A stretch of 64,000 nucleotides of DNA from Promicromonospora soli (GTDB lineage Bacteria; Actinomycetota; Actinomycetes; Actinomycetales; Cellulomonadaceae): assembly GCF_014653785.1 (NCBI RefSeq), contig NZ_BNAS01000006.1, positions 248,001 through 312,000 of the forward strand, in the 5' to 3' direction. This document shows positions 42,039 to 54,450 of the stretch, piece by piece; position 1 is the first letter of the stretch, and every line of letters starts with the position of its first letter. Position numbers and translations under genes: made by a program. The notes beneath the pieces are model-generated. The model had not been told where the DNA came from and searched no databases. It saw nothing but the letters and a program-made list of their open reading frames with translations.

Positions 42039-42617
42039 ATGAACCTTGCCGGAGTCCTCGCCGCCTCCACGAGCACCGCGGTGCTCGTGGAGGGCGAGAG
42101 CGACCGCGCGGCCGTCGAGACGCTCGCCGCCCGGCTGGGCCTGCCCCTCGCCGACCTCGGCGTGCAGGTCGTGGCGATGGGCGGGATCACCAACATCGGC
42201 CACCACCTCGTCGCCCTGGGCGGCCAGGACATCCGGCTCGGTGGCCTGTACGACGCCGCGGAGGAACGCTTCGTCATCAAGGGCCTCGACCGGGTGGGCC
42301 TGCGGCCGTTCGACGCGACCACTCCCCTGACCGACCTCGGCTTCTTCCGCTGCGACCGGGACCTCGAGGACGAGCTGATCCGGGCCGTCGGGACCGACGG
42401 GTTCCTCGCCCTCATCGCTGCCGAGGGCGAGCTGCGGAGCTTCTCGCGGCTGCAGGGCCAGCCGGCCCAGCGCGAACGCACCGCTACCCAGCAGCTGCAC
42501 CGCTTCATCGGCTCGAAGGGCGGCCGGAAGGAGCGCTACGGGCGCCGCCTGGCCGAGGTGCTCCCGCTGGACCGGGTGCCGGCCCCGCTCGACGCCGTAC
42601 TGCGCTGGGCCACCTGA
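42039..42617 (+). CDS. Stand-alone TOPRIM-domain (OLD-like) protein
   Basis: A 192-residue protein. TAVLVEGESDRAAVETLAAR is the TOPRIM signature, with the catalytic glutamate in VEGESD, and LGFFRCDRDLEDELIRAVG may supply the DxD equivalent. It resembles the OLD-family nuclease TOPRIM domain without the ATPase. DNA or RNA nicking is possible. TACGAT lies 10 nt before the ATG, longer than elsewhere. The upstream region is the gene-free stretch with the large inverted repeat. Confidence 0.72.
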   Translation: MNLAGVLAASTSTAVLVEGESDRAAVETLAARLGLPLADLGVQVVAMGGITNIGHHLVALGGQDIRLGGLYDAAEERFVIKGLDRVGLRPFDATTPLTDLGFFRCDRDLEDELIRAVGTDGFLALIAAEGELRSFSRLQGQPAQRERTATQQLHRFIGSKGGRKERYGRRLAEVLPLDRVPAPLDAVLRWAT

Positions 42618-43722: not shown

Positions 43723-43905
43723 GCTCGGATTCAACCACGCGAGCCGTGCACTCCTGGCGAGTGGGCGCTGTTGACCGTAGCGGCGTACACCGTGGGCCCG
43801 TCCGCGACGGTCCGGAGCGTGATGCGCCGACGCGACCTGGTCTGAGCGGTCTCGTTGCAGGTCAGCGGCATTTTCCGGCATATCGGGAGTGTCAGTGGTC
43901 CCGCC

Positions 43906-43921
43906 TAGGGTGGCGCTCATG
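43906..43921 (+). promoter_or_regulatory. Leaderless -10 box of the XerC/D-like gene
   Basis: TAGGGT (43906-43911) is 7 nt before ATG 43919. Confidence 0.6.
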
Positions 43922-44950
43922 GTCGCTCCTCCGCGCCTCGAGCGCGTCACCGTCGCCGAAGCCGCCCGCCGTTATCTCGCGGCGGTCGAGGTCGAGACGA
44001 TCCGCGGCGTCCTGTCCCCCGCCACGGCGCGCAGCTACACGCGTGACGTCACCGAGTTCGGGCGGCTGACCGGCCGCGACCGGATCCTCGACGACGTCAC
44101 GGGGGCCGACGTCGACAGCGTGCTCGTGCGCTACCAGTCCGCGCCTGACGCCCGGTACACCGACCCGGACCGCAAGCCCGGCCCCGGGCGCAGCACCGCC
44201 ACCGTCAACCGGTTCCGGCAGTCGGTCACCCGGTTCTTCGCGTACGCGGCGCGCGAGTGCTGGGTCCAGGCCGACCCGATGCAGTGGGCCGCGCCGCCGG
44301 CCAAGGTGCGCGGCACCCTGCGCACCGCTCGCACCGCCCTGTCGGCGGGAGCGGCCCGCAGCCTGCTGGCCACCTCGCCGTCGGACACGCCCGCCCGCAC
44401 CGACCAGGACCTCGCCCTGCGCGACCGGCTGGTGGTCGCGCTGCTGCTGGTCCTGGGTCCGCGCGTCTCGGAGCTCGCCCGTACCGACGTCGACGACGTC
44501 GCCCGCGAGCCCGAGCGCGCCACCTGGCGCATCCGCGGCAAGGGCGGCAACACCCGCACCGTAACCCTCTCACCGCCCCTGGCCGGTGCCCTGGACGACT
44601 ACCTCACCCTGCTCCGCCCTGCCCTTGCCGCGAAACGCCCCCAGGACGACGACGCCCAGCGTGCCCTCCTGCTGTCCTGGCGGGGCCGGCGCATCGACAC
44701 CCAGGCCATCCGCGCCCTCCTGGCCCGCGCCGTCAGCCGCATGCCCGCGCCCTACCAGCGCGAGGCCACCCCGCACGCGCTGCGGCACACCACAGCGACC
44801 CTGCTGGTCGCCGACGGCTGGGACGTGAAGGTCGTCGCGGAGCTCCTCGGGCACGCCTCGATCGCCACCACCGGTGTCTATCTCGACCGCATCGAGGGTG
44901 AGCTCACGGCCGCCATCCGGTCCCACCCGCTGGCGGCCGCGATCGAATGA
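43919..44950 (+). CDS. XerC/D-like tyrosine recombinase
   Basis: A 343-residue tyrosine recombinase. SAM-like domain about 8-120; catalytic residues in LVLGPRVSELART (Arg), GKGGNTRTVTL (Lys), HALRHTTATLL (His/Arg), LLGHASIATTGVYLDR (His and Tyr). It resembles XerC/XerD, but sits at the start of a glycan/signalling cluster rather than with replication genes. It may be the cluster's integrase. ATG 43919 is leaderless. The ATP-grasp gene follows on the same strand. Confidence 0.88.
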   Translation: MVAPPRLERVTVAEAARRYLAAVEVETIRGVLSPATARSYTRDVTEFGRLTGRDRILDDVTGADVDSVLVRYQSAPDARYTDPDRKPGPGRSTATVNRFRQSVTRFFAYAARECWVQADPMQWAAPPAKVRGTLRTARTALSAGAARSLLATSPSDTPARTDQDLALRDRLVVALLLVLGPRVSELARTDVDDVAREPERATWRIRGKGGNTRTVTLSPPLAGALDDYLTLLRPALAAKRPQDDDAQRALLLSWRGRRIDTQAIRALLARAVSRMPAPYQREATPHALRHTTATLLVADGWDVKVVAELLGHASIATTGVYLDRIEGELTAAIRSHPLAAAIE

Positions 44951-45025
44951 GCGCAGGGCTCGGAATGCGCTGCGACCCGTCGCGGGTGAAACTCGCAGCA
45001 GAACCCGGACCAAGGAGCCAGCCCG

Positions 45026-45043
45026 ATGCGGACCCAGCCATGA
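45026..45043 (+). CDS. Five-codon leader ORF coupled to the ATP-grasp gene
   Basis: ATG 45026 encodes MRTQP, with AAGGAG 8 nt upstream. Its TGA overlaps ATG 45040 (ATGA). The ATP-grasp gene itself has no ribosome site, so termination-reinitiation is likely. It may simply be a device for loading ribosomes. Confidence 0.5.
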   Translation: MRTQP

Positions 45044-46008
45044 CGTCCGTCCTCGTGACCGGCGCGGGGGGTCCTGCGGGCCGTGCGCTCGGAGCACAGC
45101 TCACCTCCCGCGCCGCAGAAGGCGCAGACCTCACCTGGGTCGGTGTCGACATCGTCCCCGTGACCGACCCCAGCTTCCCGGTCACCGATCTCGCCCCCCG
45201 AGCCGACGCCTTCGACTACGCCACCGGCATGCGCGACCTCATCGACAAGTACGCCCCCGACCTCGTGCTGCCCACCGTGCAGGACGAGCTGCCCCAGGTT
45301 GCCGTGCTCGCCCAGGCCCTCGGCCGCCGGGCGGGCCGCAGTGCTCCGGCAACGTCCCGCGCTGCCGACACATCGGGCACGGTAGTGATCGCCGCCCCGG
45401 GATCCACCGCGATCGCGGCCGACAAGCTGCTCACCATGCTCGCGCTCGACCGCAGCGGGGTGCCGATCCCCCGGTACGCCCTCGCCACCGACTTCGCCGG
45501 CTCACGGGACGCACTCGCCTGGGCCGGCGGGCCGATAGTGGTCAAGCCGCGGGTCTCCCGCGGCGGCCGCGGGGTGCGGCTGATCGAGTCGCACACCGGC
45601 CCCGCCGGCACAGCCGACTGGGCCGACCTGGACGCGTCCTGGATCGTCCAGTCGTTCGCCTGCGGCACCGAGTACGGCCCACAGGTGTACCGGTCCCCCA
45701 CCGGCCACAGCACGGTCGTGGTGCTGGAGAAGACCGCGCTCAAGCAGGGCCGGGTAGGCAACGCCGCCGCCGTCGTACGCCCGCTCGCCGGTGCCGCACC
45801 CGACATCGAGGAGACGGCCCGACAGGCCGTCGAGGCACTCGGCCTCGTCGGCCCCGTGGACCTGGACATCCGCCGCGACGCGACGGGAGCGCCTGTGGTC
45901 CTGGAGGTCAACAGCCGCTTCGGCGCCAACAGCGCCCACGCCCCCGAGCTGCTGGACGCGGTGCTCGCCCAGTGGGGGCCACCCCGACCCGGCAGCCGAC
46001 CCAGATGA
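45040..46008 (+). CDS. ATP-grasp protein
   Basis: A 322-residue ATP-grasp enzyme, which joins a carboxylate to an amine or thiol using ATP. MTSVLVTGAGGPAGRALG is the N-terminal lobe, IVVKPRVSRGGRGVRLIES the ATP lid, and PVVLEVNSRFGANSAHAPEL the metal-binding end. Substrate is unknown; carbamoyl-phosphate-synthase-like and polysaccharide-linked types both occur. A start at ATG 44947 (overlapping the recombinase stop) is possible, but the leader ORF supports 45040. Confidence 0.82.
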   Translation: MTSVLVTGAGGPAGRALGAQLTSRAAEGADLTWVGVDIVPVTDPSFPVTDLAPRADAFDYATGMRDLIDKYAPDLVLPTVQDELPQVAVLAQALGRRAGRSAPATSRAADTSGTVVIAAPGSTAIAADKLLTMLALDRSGVPIPRYALATDFAGSRDALAWAGGPIVVKPRVSRGGRGVRLIESHTGPAGTADWADLDASWIVQSFACGTEYGPQVYRSPTGHSTVVVLEKTALKQGRVGNAAAVVRPLAGAAPDIEETARQAVEALGLVGPVDLDIRRDATGAPVVLEVNSRFGANSAHAPELLDAVLAQWGPPRPGSRPR

Positions 46009-46021
46009 GACGGACCCCACG

Positions 46022-47299
46022 ATGACAGAGATCCTGGCCGCAACGGCACTGGTGTTCGGCATGACGATGCTCGCCGTCGGCATCGTCCGACTGCTCATGC
46101 TCCCGTTCGCCCTCCGGTACGAGATGCGCCGCTCGCACCTACCGCCCGACGCCCCGCCGCACGCCGGAACGTTCTTCGACCGCCCAGGCCGCACGTCACC
46201 GCCCTCGATCTCGGTCATCGTGCCCGCCTACAACGAGGGCGTCGTGGTGGAGACCTGCGTGCGCTCCATCGCGCGCACCCGCTACCCCGACTTCGAGGTC
46301 GTGTGCGTCGACGACGGCTCCAGCGACGACACCTACGCCAAGCTCCAGGCGCTCGCCGCCGAGCTACCCGGTGTCCACGCGTACACGCAGCCCAACCGAG
46401 GCAAGGGCGCCGCGCTCAACCACGGCCTCAGCTACGCCCGGGGCGAGATCCTGGTGCTGGTCGACGCGGACGGCGTGTTCGGGCCCGACACCCTCACCGA
46501 GATGGTCCGCGGCTTCACCGACGAGCGCATCGGCGCAGTGTGCGGGGACGACCGCACCGTGAACCTCGACCGCGTGCAGACCCGTTTCCTCGCCATGATC
46601 AACCACGTAGGCACCGGACTGGTGCGCCGCGCACTGACCGTGCTGCACTGCCTGCCGATCGTCTCCGGCAACACCGGGGCATTCCGCCGCGACGTGCTGG
46701 AACGCACCGGCCCGCTCCGCGAGGACACCATCGGCGAGGACCTCGAGCTCACCTGGCGGGTCTACCGGGCCGGATACCGCGCCGCCTTCGCACCGCGCGC
46801 GCTGGTCTACGCCGAGTCACCGTCCACGCTGCCCGCGCTATGGAACCAGCGCGTGCGCTGGGGACGTGGCCTGCTGCAGACCATACGCCTGCACCACGAC
46901 ATGACCGGTAACCCGCGCTACGGATCGTTCGGCCCCTACCTGGCGTTCAACCTCATCGCCCAGGTGCTGGGCCCCGTGCTCCAGGTCGCCGCGCTCGCGG
47001 TGTTCGTGGCGCTGGCGTTCCTCGGCGACCCGGGCGTCCTGCCAGCCACCTTCTGGCAGGTGCTCCTGCTCCTCAGCGTGCCGCTCTCGGTCGCCCTGCT
47101 CGTGCTCGCCGTCCTCGTGGACCGCTCACCCGGCGACCTGCGGCACGCGTGGACCCTGCCGCTGTGGCCGTTCTTCTCGACGGTGATGAGCCTGGTCATG
47201 CTGCGCGCGATCTGGCTGGAGCTGCGCGGTGCCGAGAGCCGGTGGAACAAGATGGATCGAAGCGGGACGATCTCCGTCGACACGGGACAGGGCTCATGA
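46022..47299 (+). CDS. Processive family 2 glycosyltransferase (PgaC-like)
   Basis: A 425-residue membrane enzyme that probably extends a polysaccharide across the membrane. One N-terminal helix, GT2 domain about 60-300 with ISVIVPAYNEG, VCVDDGSSDD, VLVDADGVFG, GEDLELTWR and NQRVRWGRG (the Q/RxxRW motif of processive synthases), then three to four helices. It resembles PgaC/IcaA poly-N-acetylglucosamine synthase, but the polymer is not proven. It starts 13 nt after the ATP-grasp gene, and the lipoprotein overlaps its stop (ATGA). Confidence 0.9.
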   Translation: MTEILAATALVFGMTMLAVGIVRLLMLPFALRYEMRRSHLPPDAPPHAGTFFDRPGRTSPPSISVIVPAYNEGVVVETCVRSIARTRYPDFEVVCVDDGSSDDTYAKLQALAAELPGVHAYTQPNRGKGAALNHGLSYARGEILVLVDADGVFGPDTLTEMVRGFTDERIGAVCGDDRTVNLDRVQTRFLAMINHVGTGLVRRALTVLHCLPIVSGNTGAFRRDVLERTGPLREDTIGEDLELTWRVYRAGYRAAFAPRALVYAESPSTLPALWNQRVRWGRGLLQTIRLHHDMTGNPRYGSFGPYLAFNLIAQVLGPVLQVAALAVFVALAFLGDPGVLPATFWQVLLLLSVPLSVALLVLAVLVDRSPGDLRHAWTLPLWPFFSTVMSLVMLRAIWLELRGAESRWNKMDRSGTISVDTGQGS

Positions 47300-48513
47300 C
47301 CGATCACCACGCACCCCGCGCCAGGAGAATCCTCGCTGCCGCAGCCCTCGCCGCCACGCTCGCCACGACCCTCGCCGCCTGCAGCCCGGATGCCGTCACC
47401 GTGGACCGGCCGCTGGTGCAGTCGGACCACCGGCAGTCGATCAGCCTCGGCATCGAGGACGTCGCGGACCCCGACCAGGACTGGGACGCCGTCAGGCAGC
47501 GGCTCGACGAGGCGAACGCCAACATGGTGACCCTCGCGGCCGGCCGCGTCGAGTTCACGGCCTTCGACTGGTCCGCCCACCCCGACGCCGCGGCAGAGGC
47601 CGGCCGGGACCACCTCGCCCACGCGATCAACGAGACGGCACGAGGGCCCGACGACGAGCCACGACTCGTCGACCTCCTGATCGACGCCCTGATCCCCAGC
47701 TGGATCAAGCAGGACCCAACGGTGGCAGGAGTCCGCGCCGACGGCTCCCGCTCGCGATACTTCCCGTCCGCCACCGCGCTGCACGACGGCCCCGTCGGTG
47801 AACGCTACCTCGAGCTCCTGGAAGAGCTCGCCCGCCGCTACCAGCCCGACCAGATCACCTTCACGGAGTTCAAGTTCGACGACGAGACCTACGGCGACGA
47901 CGACGCCGCCCTCTACCGCGAGATGACGGGCGCGCAGGACTGGCCCCGACTACCCGACGGGAGCATCGACGAGGATGCGCCCGAGATCGCCGCCTGGCGC
48001 TCGCAGGTGGTCGCCGACTTCCTGGAGCGCGCGGGTGCGGTGCTGGACGACGTGGCCGCCGAGACCGGCAAGCGAACCGACCTCGCGATGGACGCACTGA
48101 TCGACTGGGACAACCCGGACGTGGGGCGGCCCGACGCCGGTCTCAGCTACCCCCTGCTCGCCCGGCACGCCGATCGGGTCGTGCTGTGGGTCTACCTCGG
48201 CATCGGCAACCACACGTCCGACGACGTCGAGCCGCTCACCGCGGCACTTGCCCGCTCCGATCTCCCGACCGACAAGCTCACCCTCTCCGTGGGGCTCTGG
48301 GACCACGGCACACCGAAGGACTCGATCTCGCCGCAGGTGATGGCCGACGCCGCCCGGGCCGCGCGCACGAACGGCATCACGTCGGTCAACGTCACGCCGT
48401 ACACACTGATGACGGCGGAGCACTGGAGCGCGCTCAGCGAGGTGTGGACTCGGCTTCCACCGACGAGCTCGTCGGAGAGTCCGTCGACGACGCCGTCGGC
48501 AGAGTCACCGTGA
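47296..48513 (+). CDS. Lipoprotein with TIM-barrel/glycoside hydrolase-like domain
   Basis: A 405-residue lipoprotein. The signal ends in lipobox LAAC (Cys29). The remaining TIM-barrel-like domain (GIEDVADPDQDWDAVRQRLD, QITFTEFKFDDETYG, VVLWVYLGIGNH) resembles the C-terminal glycan hydrolase domain of PgaB and related GHL proteins. The placing after a PgaC-like synthase supports glycan processing, but catalytic residues cannot be confirmed. The last 80 nt overlap the convergent kinase gene. Confidence 0.7.
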   Translation: MTDHHAPRARRILAAAALAATLATTLAACSPDAVTVDRPLVQSDHRQSISLGIEDVADPDQDWDAVRQRLDEANANMVTLAAGRVEFTAFDWSAHPDAAAEAGRDHLAHAINETARGPDDEPRLVDLLIDALIPSWIKQDPTVAGVRADGSRSRYFPSATALHDGPVGERYLELLEELARRYQPDQITFTEFKFDDETYGDDDAALYREMTGAQDWPRLPDGSIDEDAPEIAAWRSQVVADFLERAGAVLDDVAAETGKRTDLAMDALIDWDNPDVGRPDAGLSYPLLARHADRVVLWVYLGIGNHTSDDVEPLTAALARSDLPTDKLTLSVGLWDHGTPKDSISPQVMADAARAARTNGITSVNVTPYTLMTAEHWSALSEVWTRLPPTSSSESPSTTPSAESP

Positions 48514-49777
48514 CCCTGGTCCCCGCACCGGGCGAGCTGCCGACCCCCATGGTGCCGCCGTGCGCGTCCACGATGGCCTGCACGACCGGCAGACCGAGCC
48601 CGAACCCCAGGATCGTATGGCCCTTGGCGGCGCGATAGCGGTCGAGCCGTTCGGTGAGCCGGCCGAGCTCGTCGGGCCCCATGCCGACTCCCGTGTCGGC
48701 GACCTCGATCACCGCCTCCTGGGTCGCCACACCACGCAGACCGGCCCGCACCGTCACCGCACCGCCGCGCGGCGTGCGCCTGATCGCGTCGTCCAGCAGG
48801 ATGGTGATCGCCTGCGCCAGGAGCTCCGGGTCTCCCGAGACCGCAACCGGTCCGGGCGTCACCACCGTGAGCGACAACCCGGCGGCCCACGCCGTCGGGC
48901 CCAGCTCGTCGCCGCAGGCGCGCGACACCCGGACCAGGTCCACGTTCTTCCGGGCGATGCTGTGCTGCCCGGCCGCCAGCCGCACGCTCATCAGCAGCTC
49001 GTCGATGAGCCGCAGCTGGCGGCGCCCGCTGCGCTCGATGACGTCCGCATAGGTGTGCTGGTCGTCGGTCAGGGAGCCTGCGCCCAGGAGCTGGGCGTAC
49101 CCGAGCACCGTGGTCAGGGGCGAGCGCAGCGCATGTCCGACCATGCCGATGACCTCGTCCTGCGGCCGCTCGGTCGTGTCAGCTTCGGTGGCCTCGGTGG
49201 TGACGGCCCGTGCGTGCCGGGCCACAGCGGCCGTGCCGAACGCGATCAGGAAGGCGACCACCGGCACCACGGCACGCGGTACGGCCGGCTCAGCGATGAG
49301 CTCGGGTCCACCGAGCACCAGCCCCACCTGCACCCCCACCGTACCGGCGGTTGCCAGCACCACAGCGGACCTCGTCGCCTGCAGCCCGAGGCTCACCACC
49401 GGAAGCAGGAGCAGCGCATCGACCGACGCCACGGCCGCGCCAGACCCGTGCTGCAGCGCGACGAGCGCACCCATCTGGACCAGTGGCAGCACCGACTGCC
49501 ATGCGGCCGGGATGCGGTCCCACGGGATGAGCACACCTGCGACCTGCGCGCCCAGCACCATCACCAGACCCAGCCACATCTCGAACCAGGCCACGGTTCC
49601 GCCCGACGCCATAGATGCCGACGGCAGGGGTACCAGCACCCATGACATCGTGTAGACGACGGTGAACGCGACCAGGCGTAGCCCTACGGCATCTGGCGCG
49701 AGGAGGCGCTCAGTGAAGCGGTCCAGCTGGCCGTCCAGGTGGCCGTCCCAGGCCGTGTGCGGTCTCGGCGCGCTCAC
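48434..49777 (-). CDS. Membrane sensor histidine kinase
   Basis: A 447-residue HisKA kinase. About six helices at 35-185 form the sensor with no large outside domain. The dimerisation helix has H215 (VGHALRSPLTTVLGYAQLL). The HATPase domain shows EVADTGVGMGPDEL and TILGFGLGLPVVQAIV. GTG 49777 overlaps the REC-PIG-L stop (GTGA), so the pair is coupled and very likely cognate. The 80-nt overlap with the lipoprotein end is convergent. Confidence 0.93.
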   Translation of the reverse strand: MSAPRPHTAWDGHLDGQLDRFTERLLAPDAVGLRLVAFTVVYTMSWVLVPLPSASMASGGTVAWFEMWLGLVMVLGAQVAGVLIPWDRIPAAWQSVLPLVQMGALVALQHGSGAAVASVDALLLLPVVSLGLQATRSAVVLATAGTVGVQVGLVLGGPELIAEPAVPRAVVPVVAFLIAFGTAAVARHARAVTTEATEADTTERPQDEVIGMVGHALRSPLTTVLGYAQLLGAGSLTDDQHTYADVIERSGRRQLRLIDELLMSVRLAAGQHSIARKNVDLVRVSRACGDELGPTAWAAGLSLTVVTPGPVAVSGDPELLAQAITILLDDAIRRTPRGGAVTVRAGLRGVATQEAVIEVADTGVGMGPDELGRLTERLDRYRAAKGHTILGFGLGLPVVQAIVDAHGGTMGVGSSPGAGTRVTVTLPTASSTDSPTSSSVEAESTPR

Positions 49778-50847
49778 CCGTCCGCAGGTTTTCCGGGCGC
49801 ATGGTCCGCGGACACCTGTTCCGGTGCCGACGTGAGCCGCATCGTGGACCGAACGGTCTCCAGCGGCTCCGCGTAGTGGCCCCGCATGTACCGCGACCAG
49901 TACCTGGCGGTGGCTCGCACGACGTCCTCAGCCATGTAGTCCCGGTGCGCCTGCGAGGTGAACATGCGCAGCATCCGCAGCTTGGTCTCCAGGTGCTCGG
50001 CGATGTCCACGAACCGGTCCGGCCGGTAGTCGACGGTCGACGACGGGCTCTGGAAGCACGCCAGGTCCGCGACGTCGCGGGACGCGACCTGGACCGCCTG
50101 GTGCACCGCGCGATGGTCCTGGTGCCGGTCATGGTTGCTGTGCGTGTAGACCCGATCCGGCCGGACGTCCCGGATCACCTCTTCCAGCGCCGTGATCGGG
50201 CCCGACGCCGAGTCCAGGTGGGTGTCCTCGAAGCCCAGGTGGATGAGCCGCGCACCGATGATCTGGGCAGCCGCCTTCGCCTCCACGTACCGCGCCTCCG
50301 CATACCCGCCCGCCGAGCCGCCTGACATCGTCAGGATCACCAACCGGTCTCCGCTGCTCGCGTGCGCGGCGAGCGCGCCGCCCACGCCGAGCTCGACGTC
50401 GTCCGGGTGGGCACCCACCGCCAGCACCGTCTTGGTGCGGTCCGCGCGCCACGCCCGGCCTCGGCGCGCGAGCGCGGTTGCCCGTTCGACGAGCAGCGCC
50501 ATGTCGACTGGCTTGACCAGGAAGTCGTCCACGTCGCCGCGCAGGGCGTCCACGGCATAGTCGACGCGATTGTGCGCCGTCAGGATGATGACGGGGACGC
50601 CCGCGGCCAGCTGGTGCACCTCCGGCAGGATCTCCAGGCCGGAGCGCCCGGGCAGCTCGATATCGATCAGCACGAGGTCGAAGCTCTCGGCCCGCAGGAC
50701 CGCCAGCGCGCTCTCCGCGTCGCCGGCGATGACGGCGTGCATCCCGGCGTGCTGCTCGAGCACCGTGCGCGTGAACTCACCCGCGTCGGGATCGTCCTCG
50801 ACGACCAGCGCCGACCAGGTGCCGGACGAAGCCTTGTCTCTTGCCAT
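49774..50847 (-). CDS. Response regulator with PIG-L/LmbE deacetylase output domain
   Basis: A 357-residue fusion. REC domain about 13-128: D18/D19, phosphoacceptor D62 (LVLIDIELPGRSG) and K112 (FLVKPVD). PIG-L domain about 140-340: AVGAHPDDVELG (H147, D149, D150) and RHQDHRAVH (H245), the zinc and catalytic residues of LmbE, MshB and PIG-L N-deacetylases. Phosphorylation should therefore gate a deacetylase rather than DNA binding. The gene is coupled to its kinase and faces a glycan synthesis operon. The substrate could be an N-acetylglucosamine glycolipid or polymer. Start ATG 50847 follows GGGGGAGGG. Confidence 0.9.
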   Translation of the reverse strand: MARDKASSGTWSALVVEDDPDAGEFTRTVLEQHAGMHAVIAGDAESALAVLRAESFDLVLIDIELPGRSGLEILPEVHQLAAGVPVIILTAHNRVDYAVDALRGDVDDFLVKPVDMALLVERATALARRGRAWRADRTKTVLAVGAHPDDVELGVGGALAAHASSGDRLVILTMSGGSAGGYAEARYVEAKAAAQIIGARLIHLGFEDTHLDSASGPITALEEVIRDVRPDRVYTHSNHDRHQDHRAVHQAVQVASRDVADLACFQSPSSTVDYRPDRFVDIAEHLETKLRMLRMFTSQAHRDYMAEDVVRATARYWSRYMRGHYAEPLETVRSTMRLTSAPEQVSADHAPGKPADG

Positions 50848-51014: not shown

Positions 51015-51098
51015 GTGTCGTTGGACCGACCGCGCGAGGAGGTAGGACGGCAGATGCTGGAACTACTCGAGACGGTAATGACGGAGGCGGCCCGATGA
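51015..51098 (+). CDS. Candidate 27-codon leader ORF
   Basis: GTG 51015 opens a 27-codon frame ending QMLELLETVMTEAAR. A shorter start, ATG 51054, has AGGAGGT upstream. The TGA at 51096-51098 overlaps ATG 51095 of the REC gene (ATGA). The peptide is acidic and could form an amphipathic helix. It may be translational coupling only. Confidence 0.4.
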   Translation: MSLDRPREEVGRQMLELLETVMTEAAR

Positions 51099-51472
51099 AC
51101 CGCCGGATACTCGTGGTCGACGACGAGGAGGCGATCCGTGAAGTCGTGCGGATCAGCCTCGAGGTGGCTACCGAATGGAAGGTGGACGTCGCCACCAACG
51201 GAGCCGAGGCAGTTTCCCTGTGCACCGATGATCCACCGGACGCGGTCCTGCTGGACGTCATGATGCCCACGATGGACGGGCCGACCACGTTCGCCCGGCT
51301 CCAGGAGGACGCACGTACGCGCAGCGTCCCCGTGATCCTGTTGACCGCCAAGGTACAGCCCTCGGAGCGGCGCCGGTATGAAGACCTCGCCGTCGCCGGC
51401 GTGCTCGCCAAGCCGTTCGACCCGATCGCCCTTCCGGAACAGATCACCGACCTCCTCGGATGGCGCGGGTGA
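51095..51472 (+). CDS. Single-domain (CheY-like) response regulator
   Basis: A 125-residue receiver with no output domain. ILVVDDEEAIREV holds the acidic pocket, DAVLLDVMMPTMDGPT the phosphoacceptor aspartate and GVLAKPFDPI the lysine. ATG 51095 has ACGGAGG at 7 nt. The hybrid kinase starts within its stop codon (GTGA). It may be the kinase's phosphate relay or a diffusible partner. Confidence 0.9.
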   Translation: MNRRILVVDDEEAIREVVRISLEVATEWKVDVATNGAEAVSLCTDDPPDAVLLDVMMPTMDGPTTFARLQEDARTRSVPVILLTAKVQPSERRRYEDLAVAGVLAKPFDPIALPEQITDLLGWRG

Positions 51473-54450
51473 CCGCCCGCTCCCCCGGGGTCGGCGATGG
51501 TGGCCTCCCCTTGGAGAGCGTGTGGTCAGGAAGCGCTGCCGCGCGGTCATGGAGCAGGTTCGTCCGCTGGTCCTGGGTGGCCGGCATCGCGGTCCTCCTG
51601 GTCGTCCTCCTGCTCCTGGGCCCCTTCGACCAGGCGACGCGCGAACAGATCTCCATGGTGGCGATCGCCGCCGCGGGTGTCGTCGCGGCGGCGAGCTGTG
51701 GGCGGCGCGCGGTGCAGTCGACGGGTCGTCGCCGGCGGGCGTGGGGCATCCTCTCCCTGGGCGGAGTCGTCGGGCTCGCCGGCAACGTCTACGCGGGGCT
51801 GGTCGGCGACCCCGAGACCGGGGACGCCGCCTACATCGCCGCTCTCGCGCTCGGCGTGGTGGGCATGTCGCTCTTCCCGGCTGTCCGACCGCGCGGCCGC
51901 GAGATGGTGCGCATGCTGCTGGACAGCATCGTGGTCGGCGGCTCCGTCCTGTACATCGCGCTCTTCGCCGTCGTACTGGATGGGGACGCACTGGCGGCGC
52001 AGCCGACGCTCACTGCCTACGCCCTGCCCGTGGTCGACGCCCTGCTCGCGACTCTCGCGGTCCTCGTCATGACCCGCTCGAGCGCCGCCGAACGTGTGCC
52101 GCTCGTGCTCGTGGGCGGCGGGTTCGTCCTGTACGCCGTTGCGGACGTGGCTTTCGCGCTGCTGACCGCGGCAGGTGGCTTCATGTTCGGCAGCCCGGTC
52201 GACGTCGGCTGGATCGGCGGATATGTCGCCATCGCGCTCGCCGCGCGCCATCCGGCGGCCTCCGGCACCTCGGTCGTCGGCCGGCCCGGGGACGGGACGC
52301 CGGTGCTCGGCACGATCGTGACGTTCTGCCTGTTCCTCACAGCGGCGCTGGTGCGCGTCGTCCAGGCGGGCCAGGGACTACCCGGGGTGGCCAACGCGCT
52401 GTGGGTCGCCGTGCTCGTCGCGGTCGTCGTGCGCCAGATCCTGGTCGTCGCGGACAACGCGTCCCTGCGTCACGGGCTCGAGCGGCGCGTCCAGGAACGC
52501 ACCACGCAGCTGCGCTCGCTCGCGAGCGAACGTGAGCGGACGCTGGAGTCGGTGGCCGACGGGATCTACGGGGTGGACCCCGAAGGGCTGGTGACGTTCA
52601 TCAACGCGGCCGCGGCGCAGTCGCTCGGTACGTCCGCCGCGGACCTCGTGGGGCGCAACGCGCACGCCACCTTCCACGCGCTGGCCGAGGACGGCAGCTC
52701 CCACCCCGTGGAACACTGCTACATCACCGAGGCCCTGCGCTACGGGATCACCGCCACGGCCGAGCAGGACGTCTACCGGTGCCTGGACGGGACGGGGAAC
52801 GAAGTGCCCGTCGAGGTCACCGCGAGCCCACTGCGCGACGACGGAGGGATCCGCGGCGCGGTCGTCGCCTTCCGCGACGTCACGGAGCGGCGCGAGATGG
52901 AGCGCATCAAGGACGAGTTCGTGTCCGTGGTCAGCCACGAGCTGCGAACCCCGCTGACGGCGATCCGAGGCGCGCTCGGGCTCATCGACAGCAACGCTCT
53001 CGATGACAAACCCGAGCAGGCGGCGCGCATGATCCACATCGCGCTGACGAGCAGCGAGCGGCTCGGTCGGCTCGTGGACGACATCCTCGACACCGAGCGC
53101 TTGAACGCGAGCACGACACGGCTCGAGCTCGAGGAGCACCGGGTCGATGCACTCGTGGCCACGGCGGTGGACCAGGTTGCGGTCCTGGCGAACGAGGCCG
53201 GGGTGGCCCTCCGGCCCGTCGGATCCTCGGAGGTCGTCCGTGCGGATGGCGAGCGCATCGTGCAGACGCTCACCAACCTGCTGGGCAACGCCGTCAGGTT
53301 CTCCCCGCACGGCAGCACCGTCCGCGTGACAGCCATGCCGGTCGGTGACTATGTCGAGCTGCGTGTCGACGACGAGGGCCGCGGCATCCCGCCGGACAAG
53401 CTAGAGGCAATCTTCGGCCGGTTCGAACAGGTTGATGCCTCCGACACGCGCGAGCGGGGCGGCAGCGGGCTCGGCCTGACCATCGCCCGCAGCATCGTCG
53501 AGCGGCACGGCGGGCGGTTGTGGGCGGTCAGCGAGGGCGAGGGCCGAGGTTCGAGCTTCCGGTTCACTCTCCGTCGCGTCACCCTGGATGTGAACCGCAC
53601 CGCGGAGGAGTCGCTGGAGGAGGCTCCCGCAGCGACGCGGGTGGTCGTCGTGGACGACGAGCCGCACGTCGTCGACATGTTCCGCAGGGTCCTGGAGGAG
53701 CGGGGGTACGACGTCGTCGGCGTCACAGACGGAAGTGCGGCGCTCGAAGCGATCGACGAGGAGCGGCCCGCCGCGATCGTGCTCGACCTCGCGATGCCGG
53801 GCACCAGCGGGGCTGAGGTGCTGGGCCGGCTGCGGCAGTCCGCCGCGACCGCCGGACTGCCCGTCGTCGTGGTGTCCGGGACGCGTCCGACGGACGCGCT
53901 GGAGACCGCCGTGCTGGCCGACGGCTGGCTCGTCAAGCCCGTGGACCCCGGCCGTCTCATCGAGACCGTCCGGGAGGTCATCCGCCGGCGGCCGACCCAC
54001 AACCGGGTCCTGGTCGTCGAGGACGACGACAACCTGCGAACCGTCGTGGCGACGGTCCTGGAGAACGGCGGGCTCTCCGTCACCCAGGCGCGTTCGGTGA
54101 GTGAGGCTCGGGACGCTCTCGCCAGTGGCGCCGAGCCGGACCTCGTCCTTCTCGACCTCAAGCTCCCCGGCGCCAACGGGCAGGAGCTCGTCGCCGATCT
54201 GCGTCGCCACGGCCGCCTCCGCGAGGTCCCCCTCGTCGTCTATTCGGGCGCGGAGGTCAGCTTGGAGGAGCGCGAGGACCTTCAGCTGGGCCGGACGGTC
54301 TTCCTCACCAAGAGCCACACCACGCCGGACGCCGTCCTGCGTTCCGTGCTCGACCTCCTGGATGTCGTCGCCGGTCGCACTGTCGCAAGTCGCACAGGCG
54401 CCGGCGACGGCGGCGAGACCGGAGAACCCCCCTCATCGAGGACCTCATGA
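51469..54450 (+). CDS. Large hybrid histidine kinase: MASE-like, PAS, HisKA, HATPase, REC, REC
   Basis: A 993-residue membrane kinase. Eight to nine helices (about 30-320) form an unrecognised MASE-like sensor; a coiled coil (about 325-355, QLRSLASERERTLESVADGI) leads to a PAS domain (about 355-470). HisKA carries H about 490 (SVVSHELRTPLTAIRG). The HATPase has RGIPPDKLEAIFGRFEQVD and GGSGLGLTIARSIV. Two REC domains follow, with Asp about 772 (IVLDLAMPG) and about 894 (VLLDLKLPG). GTG 51469 overlaps the REC gene stop; ATG 51460 is an alternative. The next gene overlaps by ATGA. Confidence 0.9.
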   Translation: MTARSPGVGDGGLPLESVWSGSAAARSWSRFVRWSWVAGIAVLLVVLLLLGPFDQATREQISMVAIAAAGVVAAASCGRRAVQSTGRRRRAWGILSLGGVVGLAGNVYAGLVGDPETGDAAYIAALALGVVGMSLFPAVRPRGREMVRMLLDSIVVGGSVLYIALFAVVLDGDALAAQPTLTAYALPVVDALLATLAVLVMTRSSAAERVPLVLVGGGFVLYAVADVAFALLTAAGGFMFGSPVDVGWIGGYVAIALAARHPAASGTSVVGRPGDGTPVLGTIVTFCLFLTAALVRVVQAGQGLPGVANALWVAVLVAVVVRQILVVADNASLRHGLERRVQERTTQLRSLASERERTLESVADGIYGVDPEGLVTFINAAAAQSLGTSAADLVGRNAHATFHALAEDGSSHPVEHCYITEALRYGITATAEQDVYRCLDGTGNEVPVEVTASPLRDDGGIRGAVVAFRDVTERREMERIKDEFVSVVSHELRTPLTAIRGALGLIDSNALDDKPEQAARMIHIALTSSERLGRLVDDILDTERLNASTTRLELEEHRVDALVATAVDQVAVLANEAGVALRPVGSSEVVRADGERIVQTLTNLLGNAVRFSPHGSTVRVTAMPVGDYVELRVDDEGRGIPPDKLEAIFGRFEQVDASDTRERGGSGLGLTIARSIVERHGGRLWAVSEGEGRGSSFRFTLRRVTLDVNRTAEESLEEAPAATRVVVVDDEPHVVDMFRRVLEERGYDVVGVTDGSAALEAIDEERPAAIVLDLAMPGTSGAEVLGRLRQSAATAGLPVVVVSGTRPTDALETAVLADGWLVKPVDPGRLIETVREVIRRRPTHNRVLVVEDDDNLRTVVATVLENGGLSVTQARSVSEARDALASGAEPDLVLLDLKLPGANGQELVADLRRHGRLREVPLVVYSGAEVSLEEREDLQLGRTVFLTKSHTTPDAVLRSVLDLLDVVAGRTVASRTGAGDGGETGEPPSSRTS

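Follow-up and report, generated by a model that had tools for sequence, protein, structure and literature searches.

Here, we analyze a 64,000-nucleotide stretch of the Promicromonospora soli genome (contig NZ_BNAS01000006.1, positions 248,001 to 312,000; "the window", whose own numbering is used below), which encodes a receiver domain (REC) fused to a PIG-L/LmbE-type deacetylase domain. Comparison across genomes supports REC-PIG-L as a real, conserved architecture, and in three phyla its gene stands with those for an ATP-grasp ligase and a family 2 glycosyltransferase (GT2). We consider it rather probable that the fusion is a signal-gated deacetylase of the cytoplasmic membrane face, working with the GT2 and the ATP-grasp enzyme in a conserved amino-sugar glycan pathway.

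The fusion gene (49774-50847, minus strand) encodes 357 amino acids, in which a receiver (residues ~11-116) and a linker helix (116-136) precede the PIG-L/LmbE domain (~140-333). Both domains exceed their Pfam cut-offs (Response_reg, 91.8 versus 30.2 bits; PIG-L, 94.8 versus 28.2 bits). The receiver key residues E17, D18, D62, T90, and K112 are present, as are the AHPDD and HxDH motifs of PIG-L, and the residues singled out in an initial annotation of the locus (D62, K112, H147, D149, D150, and H245) all occupy the positions given there. An AlphaFold2 model of the protein reached a mean pLDDT of 91 and a pTM of 0.73, and its fold matches in the PDB comprised BC1534, BshB, diacetylchitobiose deacetylases, and receiver domains, including that of PorX. 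BshB1 was the top NCBIfam model for the PIG-L domain, at 93.7 bits and under its cut-off of 182.5. Pfam identified no DNA-binding domain in the window fusion, and a simple hydrophobicity scale predicted no transmembrane (TM) segment. Since a receiver-bearing enzyme has to meet its kinase, and in view of the lack of a predicted TM segment, the deacetylase is predicted to be cytoplasmic.

A protein-guided scan of genome contigs, from which at least 80 loci were kept, provided 41 fusions (L005-L044 and L059) and 39 REC-less controls. Together with nine same-genus or same-family loci and the window, this gave 51 fusion loci, a fusion being a PIG-L protein with a REC or a REC-derived N-terminus. 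Eight of the 51 were tested for a Pfam receiver, which was present in six (window, L026, L030, L036, L038, and L041); receivers outside these eight were assigned by alignment, and L042 and L043, in which Pfam finds no receiver, enter the fusion set on the strength of the alignment, their receivers being classed as degenerate. Three fusions (L007, L008, and L028), which our home-made gene caller had missed or shortened, were read from coordinates. Identity of at least 90% was limited to four pairs (L011, L012, and L016 mutually, and L103 with L104). Three controls (L052, L063, and L081) drew attention through long frames or matches upstream, and on inspection Pfam detected no receiver in their PIG-L genes; in L063, from a Planctomycetota metagenome-assembled genome (MAG), a frame of 542 amino acids (L063:990-2618) carries PIG-L at 309-425 behind an N-terminal part without Pfam match. 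The fusion at L041:9998-11461 (487 amino acids) has two Response_reg stretches ahead of PIG-L.

In the alignment, H147, D149, D150, D244, and H245 were kept in all 51 fusions and H242 in 50, whereas D62 was kept in 50 and K112 in 46. In the PIG-L tree, a single clade with members from Actinomycetota, Pseudomonadota, and Myxococcota contained the fusions; its support was moderate (87/89, short of what the tool marks as strong). The window fusion grouped with those of Cellulomonas and of same-family genomes. The clade also included L111 and L121, PIG-L proteins to which no REC was assigned. L111 (L111:9815-10507, contig C2), a lone paralog encoded by the genome of the window, shares 64% identity with the PIG-L domain of the fusion, lacks REC, and was left out of the fusion set. 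It has AHPGD where the fusions have AHPDD and may be a descendant of the fusion with altered catalysis.

Cassette content was determined with the home-made gene caller, clustering, and family profiles. Because these profiles were built from the same 51 loci, the presence counts, though neither the distances nor the control, are biased upward: a related ATP-grasp gene was found in 46 of the 51 fusion loci, a related GT2 gene in 40, a kinase gene in 39, a PHP gene in 29, a TPR protein gene in 10, a histidine phosphatase gene in 6, and a lipoprotein gene in 7. In 35/51 loci, the ATP-grasp gene starts within 150 bases downstream of the fusion on the same strand. Among the 39 REC-less controls, no ATP-grasp gene lay within 1.5 kb of PIG-L, and three loci had one anywhere in the stretch. 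With 46/51 fusion loci against 3/39 controls, across three phyla, the linkage exceeds chance, and the wide core is REC-PIG-L, ATP-grasp, and GT2, often joined by PHP or histidine phosphatase. The gene-set linkage raised in the initial annotation is thereby borne out for ATP-grasp and GT2 across phyla, the lipoprotein being narrowly distributed. Correlations between fusion, ATP-grasp, and GT2 distances (r 0.74, 0.59, and 0.92) were not used, as ancestry alone yields such values.

The common actinobacterial gene order is REC-PIG-L, ATP-grasp, PHP, GT2, a protein of ~50 amino acids, which has a TM segment in both cases tested, sometimes a single-domain regulator, and the kinase. Several Proteobacteria have GT2, a small protein, and a TPR protein, followed by REC-PIG-L, ATP-grasp, and histidine phosphatase. 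By eye, the C-termini of the proteobacterial TPR proteins look barrel-like, which points to export. The five loci lacking ATP-grasp are L025, L028, and L032 from Microbacteriaceae, L031 from a Myxococcales MAG, and L103, which is cut by a contig break. At L025, L028, and L032, fusions without ATP-grasp or GT2 are linked to regulator and kinase genes, and these stretches also hold carbon-nitrogen hydrolase (PF00795) and aminotransferase (PF00155) genes, the domains having been read in cluster members from L013.

All five receiver residues, with D/E and T/S swaps allowed, were kept in 43/51 fusions. Using the cassette-kinase profile at 120 bits and counting either strand, a kinase gene was detected within 5 kb for 37 of these 43 intact receivers but for none of the 8 degenerate ones (Fisher p 4.7e-6, uncorrected for relatedness); leaving out L042 and L043, the comparison is 37/43 against 0/6. 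The stretches of the eight degenerate receivers, which belong to Legionella (2), Alphaproteobacteria (4), and Occultella and Serinicoccus (2), had no match to the kinase profile at E 1e-5, a search that could miss other kinase types. Receiver integrity thus tracks a nearby kinase gene, which fits phosphorylation-dependent control, as a post-translational switch would predict.

The same cassette also occurs without REC. L122 combines a PIG-L protein of 212 amino acids with ATP-grasp, PHP, and GT2, and L120 combines a PIG-L protein bearing three N-terminal hydrophobic segments with ATP-grasp and GT2, neither having a REC. Its Arg-rich first loop suggests, by the positive-inside rule, that the catalytic domain of L120 faces inside. 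Since the cassette is found with either a REC-less or an apparently inside-facing membrane PIG-L, REC appears to have been added to a pathway of the cytoplasmic face. L124 has PIG-L, GT2, ATP-grasp, and a gene of the GTRPE type (UDP-GlcNAc 2-epimerase by Pfam) without an assigned REC, and L045, L048, and L050, likewise without one, resemble it by eye and profile in having the PIG-L/GT2/ATP-grasp set with a GTRPE-type gene. In view of the gene sets of L122, L120, and the L124 type, the pathway is probably located at the inner membrane face and probably concerns N-acetylhexosamines.

In the window, the genes for the ATP-grasp ligase (45040-46008, 322 amino acids, PRK12767/ATP-grasp_3 type by Pfam and NCBIfam, with a LEVNSR motif), a PgaC-like membrane GT2 (46022-47299, 425 amino acids, by Pfam and NCBIfam, with a QRVRW motif), and a lipoprotein (47296-48513, lipobox LAAC, Cys29) form a tight plus-strand run. 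This run meets the kinase gene tail to tail with an overlap of 80 bases, in agreement with the convergent arrangement described initially. The same convergence of the fusion on lipoprotein, GT2, and ATP-grasp was seen at L102, L104-L107, and L108, and PHP was found neither at these loci nor at the window. L103 is cut by the contig end, and a different contig of this genome ends with a GT2 and a lipoprotein gene. Compared with the wide-cassette ATP-grasp proteins, that of the window is only 24-33% identical. Nevertheless, the window ATP-grasp and GT2 are probably diverged counterparts of the wide-cassette proteins, as they are the best own-genome matches to the respective profiles by a clear margin (98.8 bits, next 52.7, and 152.4 bits, next 34.7). 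The lipoprotein profile matched 8/59 relatives, namely 7/13 same-genus genomes and G021; the window ATP-grasp matched the same eight and G030 (42% identity), and a REC-bearing fusion was detected in the same seven same-genus genomes, in G021, and in G030 and G031 (50-59% identity). Within the genus, fusion, lipoprotein, and ATP-grasp co-occur exactly, in the same 7/13 genomes, and the lipoprotein was found only in a narrow clade.

We propose that REC-PIG-L is a metal-dependent N-deacetylase whose activity would be set, up or down, by phosphorylation of its own receiver, and that it acts at the cytoplasmic membrane face in a pathway building an amino-sugar glycan. The PgaC-like GT2 would polymerize or transfer N-acetylhexosamine, PIG-L would expose the amine of a sugar carried by a nucleotide, a lipid, or a nascent chain, and the ATP-grasp enzyme would ligate an amine, probably this one, to an amino acid or a carboxylic acid. 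The wide distribution of ATP-grasp, to which the initial annotation assigned no role, suggests that this amine is re-acylated or aminoacylated and not merely left bare. A phosphatase-type gene, PHP or, in some Proteobacteria, histidine phosphatase, often belongs to the set, and in the window lineage the PgaB-hydrolase-like lipoprotein may trim or guide the exported chain. The locus would thus resemble a pga operon that has exchanged its external CE4 deacetylase for a PIG-L enzyme inside the cell, switched by phosphorylation. According to passages of PMC6307706, known biofilm hexosamine polymers are deacetylated after extrusion, whereas the enzyme proposed here would be inside; its substrate is therefore more likely to be a precursor or a chain still being made at the inner face than polymer already exported. 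The polymer deacetylation initially assumed fits poorly with a fusion that must be cytoplasmic and has no predicted TM segment. In many lineages, the phosphate would come from the linked kinase, while in the window genus a kinase decaying toward a phosphotransferase may relay it from another kinase.

The initial annotation had the fusion start-stop coupled to a membrane kinase, and the coupling is confirmed by a GTGA overlap between the fusion gene and the kinase gene (48434-49777, minus strand, GTG start, 447 amino acids). The kinase has HisKA (49.7 bits, cut-off 26.9) and HATPase_c (77.0 bits, cut-off 26.4) domains by Pfam and five hydrophobic segments by a simple scale. The N-box Asn is a key conserved residue of histidine kinases. 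In the motif alignment, the window kinase has Asp at this position and retains the phospho-accepting His, whereas the Asn was kept in 12/12 aligned wide-cassette kinases, from a cluster of 28, and in L108. Several sister copies (L102, L104, L105, and L106) have only 18-44 residues ahead of the H-box, too few for a TM part. In L104-L106, the N-box Asn and the final Gly of G1 have disappeared as well, with HATPase matches remaining over the Pfam cut-off at 48-56 bits, and the most reduced readable same-genus copy (L107:8773-9327) retains only PAS and HisKA by Pfam; the L103 copy is unreadable because of N runs. Control by the coupled kinase, as initially proposed, is therefore shaky in the window genus, where the window kinase lacks the N-box Asn and reduction has gone further in most sister copies that could be read. 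N-box loss and the shrinking of sister copies suggest a phosphotransferase-like relay. In Spo0B, ChpT, and PhyT, as described in parts of PMC5898713, the phosphohistidine domain is kept while the ATPase domain degenerates. L104-L107 fit this pattern, whereas L102 retains the N-box Asn and G1, and the window kinase is altered in the N-box only. The three known proteins differ from the graded series seen here within one genus, in which the putative transfer would have an enzyme as its target.

Two regulatory genes are divergent neighbors of the fusion, one for a single-domain response regulator (51095-51472, plus strand) and one for a hybrid membrane kinase with PAS-HisKA-HATPase-REC-REC architecture (51460-54450, plus strand), both by Pfam. 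The regulator cluster was present in the stretch of 7/7 same-genus fusion loci, window included; regulator and hybrid kinase lie directly upstream of the fusion in 6/7 and elsewhere in the stretch in L107. It is possible that the single-domain regulator is part of a relay, and the hybrid kinase, found in 7/7 same-genus genomes with the fusion, is a candidate phosphate source, no more. It is tempting to speculate, and we do so only tentatively, that phosphate passes from the hybrid kinase via the kinase turned phosphotransferase to the receiver of the deacetylase, that the ATP-grasp enzyme loads the freed amines with amino acids or other acids, and that the charge of a chain exported by the PgaC-like synthase would follow the signal without a round of transcription. 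This more elaborate scenario, in which the output of a two-component system would itself be the enzyme that gates synthesis of a glycan, would include a single fusion event, its spread over Actinomycetota, Pseudomonadota, and Myxococcota, and decay of receivers where the kinase was lost.

Some observations weigh against a dedicated switch of this kind. The Fisher p value overstates the case because the degenerate receivers correspond to three changes on the tree, two of them forced by strong branches, and not to eight events. The hybrid kinase is weakened as a dedicated partner by its presence in 3/6 same-genus genomes without the fusion. Furthermore, cassette-type ATP-grasp is not exclusive to the fusion. 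In a class-wide survey with the cassette ATP-grasp profile, 17/296 genomes matched at E 1e-50, the window's own genome not being among them. Within flanks of ~1.5 kb, four of these 17 had PIG-L, ATP-grasp, and PHP, three with REC and one without, one of the three (G063) having the same sequence as L041 and thus not being independent. Eleven, all of family f35 (L136-L142, L144-L146, and L148), had ATP-grasp and no PIG-L in the flank, and in 10 of them it adjoins a similar gene, an inositol monophosphatase by Pfam in the three scanned (L136, L137, and L148), which makes this a further pairing of ATP-grasp with a phosphatase. In the remaining two, the ATP-grasp protein is longer and its gene adjoins one of the GTRPE type.

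Among alternative explanations, the one that survives best, albeit as an unlikely one, is that PIG-L deacetylates poly-N-acetylglucosamine (poly-GlcNAc) while the GT2 makes and extrudes it, setting its charge as PgaB or IcaB does for this polymer (PNAG), with ATP-grasp doing no more than supporting precursor supply. PgaC_IcaA (TIGR03937) was indeed the best NCBIfam model for the window GT2. Its score of 171.9 bits, like those of other cassette GT2 proteins (L006, 123.0; L030, 117.4), is under the equivalog cut-off of 422.3, and we rejected the GT2 as a certified PgaC/IcaA poly-GlcNAc synthase. The PIG-L fold matches chitobiose deacetylases, and the predicted fold of the lipoprotein, a TIM barrel, was nearest in Foldseek to the C-terminal glycan-hydrolase domain (GH153) of PgaB, the domain that cleaves deacetylated PNAG according to parts of PMC5933820; VIA-align comparison of the lipoprotein fold matches was limited to Foldseek's top 1000 chains. 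The initial description of the lipoprotein as GHL-like thus stands at the level of the predicted fold and fails at that of sequence, where there was no Pfam match at E 1, no PDB profile match, and an hhalign probability of 0.2 against E. coli PgaB alone, so that a sequence-level relationship to PgaB was not found. The catalytic Asp of Bordetella bronchiseptica PgaB is D474 in the same parts of PMC5933820; in the lipoprotein, an invariant E191 follows the strand 187-190. Known biofilm hexosamine polymers are deacetylated after extrusion (PMC6307706, in the passages cited above), yet the REC-bearing enzyme must be inside and lacks a TM segment in the window, and the widespread ATP-grasp would be left without a role.

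In the biosynthesis of mycothiol and bacillithiol, sugar transfer is followed by dephosphorylation, deacetylation, and amide ligation. The cassette might follow this order to make a small glycoconjugate instead of a polymer, possibly a glycolipid, an explanation that we rank below the preceding one. BshB1 as top NCBIfam model and BshB among the PDB matches agree with it, as does the parallel between the logic of these pathways and the set of PIG-L, ATP-grasp, phosphatase, and GT2. However, the GT2 has several TM segments, and the D, D, D, QxxRW pattern of processive enzymes is kept in the 24 cassette GT2 proteins aligned; moreover, the ~50-amino-acid TM partner and the TPR proteins with barrel-like ends suggest a machine for synthesis and export, and the window lineage has the PgaB-like lipoprotein.

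For the window genus, it is also conceivable, though improbable, that the coupled kinase is a decaying remnant that no longer switches the receiver, and that PIG-L acts constitutively or responds to accidental cross-talk. The Asn-to-Asp change in the window N-box, the sister copies without TM part, the loss of the N-box and part of G1 in L104-L106, and the reduction to PAS and HisKA in L107 would all be expected of a remnant, but the receiver residues are intact in 8/8 window-type fusions, 7/7 same-genus copies preserve the phospho-accepting His along with the GTGA coupling, L102 retains the N-box Asn and G1, and no kinase gene was seen in lineages whose receivers are truly degenerate. An accidental neighborhood around an unrelated regulator, to which the absence of ATP-grasp from 5/51 loci might point, is highly improbable, and chance linkage is rejected by the counts at fusion loci and REC-less controls in three phyla.

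The proposed cytoplasmic-face pathway shares features with several known systems. As in pgaABCD and icaADBC, there is a PgaC-like GT2 and, at the level of predicted fold, a counterpart of the PgaB C-terminal hydrolase domain, and in some Proteobacteria the ~50-amino-acid TM protein and the barrel-ended TPR protein near GT2 recall the positions of PgaD and PgaA. In contrast to these operons, no CE4 deacetylase was found among the window proteins scanned (42-54 kb), the locus having instead a presumably cytoplasmic PIG-L under a receiver, and the cassette has conserved ATP-grasp and phosphatase-type genes and a GT2 far under the PgaC cut-off. The one PF01522 match in the window genome (5.38 Mb, 20 contigs) lies on contig C3. 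With BshB and MshB, which act in pathways where deacetylation precedes amide ligation, the fusion shares the PIG-L family, fold, and catalytic residues; it differs in bearing a receiver and in scoring below the BshB1 cut-off, and its cassette has a membrane GT2 and ATP-grasp in place of a soluble glycosyltransferase and the Bsh/Msh ligases.

Response regulators with enzyme outputs include the CheB, GGDEF/EAL, PP2C, and PorX types. The fusion resembles them in pairing a receiver with a catalytic output, Pfam detecting no DNA-binding domain, and differs in that its output is a carbohydrate de-N-acetylase in what appears to be its own pathway operon. In Clostridioides difficile, a separate pig-L gene, biofilm-related by the title of the paper, is flanked by a response-regulator gene (PMC12613277, in part); there, unlike in the fusion, two separate genes are involved and the regulator is a transcription factor. 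We found no published REC-PIG-L fusion or cassette in the open-licence PMC literature, response-regulator censuses in subscription journals being outside this scope.

Upstream of the ATP-grasp gene lies a tyrosine recombinase gene (~43895-44950), outside the proposed system; the start initially assigned to the system, 43919, falls inside it. Farther upstream, a protein of 192 amino acids (42039-42617) gave an OLD-like TOPRIM match (33.0 bits, cut-off 23.2). A promoter and terminator scan returned no signal exceeding that of shuffled sequences.

Transcription is the route by which most two-component systems act; the enzymes known as outputs mostly synthesize or degrade second messengers, or act by modifying proteins. 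A receiver-fused carbohydrate deacetylase in its own glycan operon would, if the proposal is true, be a direct switch from signal to surface chemistry. Since the cassette occurs with REC intact, decayed, or absent, it provides a natural experiment, and in the window genus a kinase gene has been caught at several stages of ATPase-domain loss. In addition, our analysis places an unassigned ATP-grasp family beside a deacetylase, which makes its possible role in amine ligation testable.

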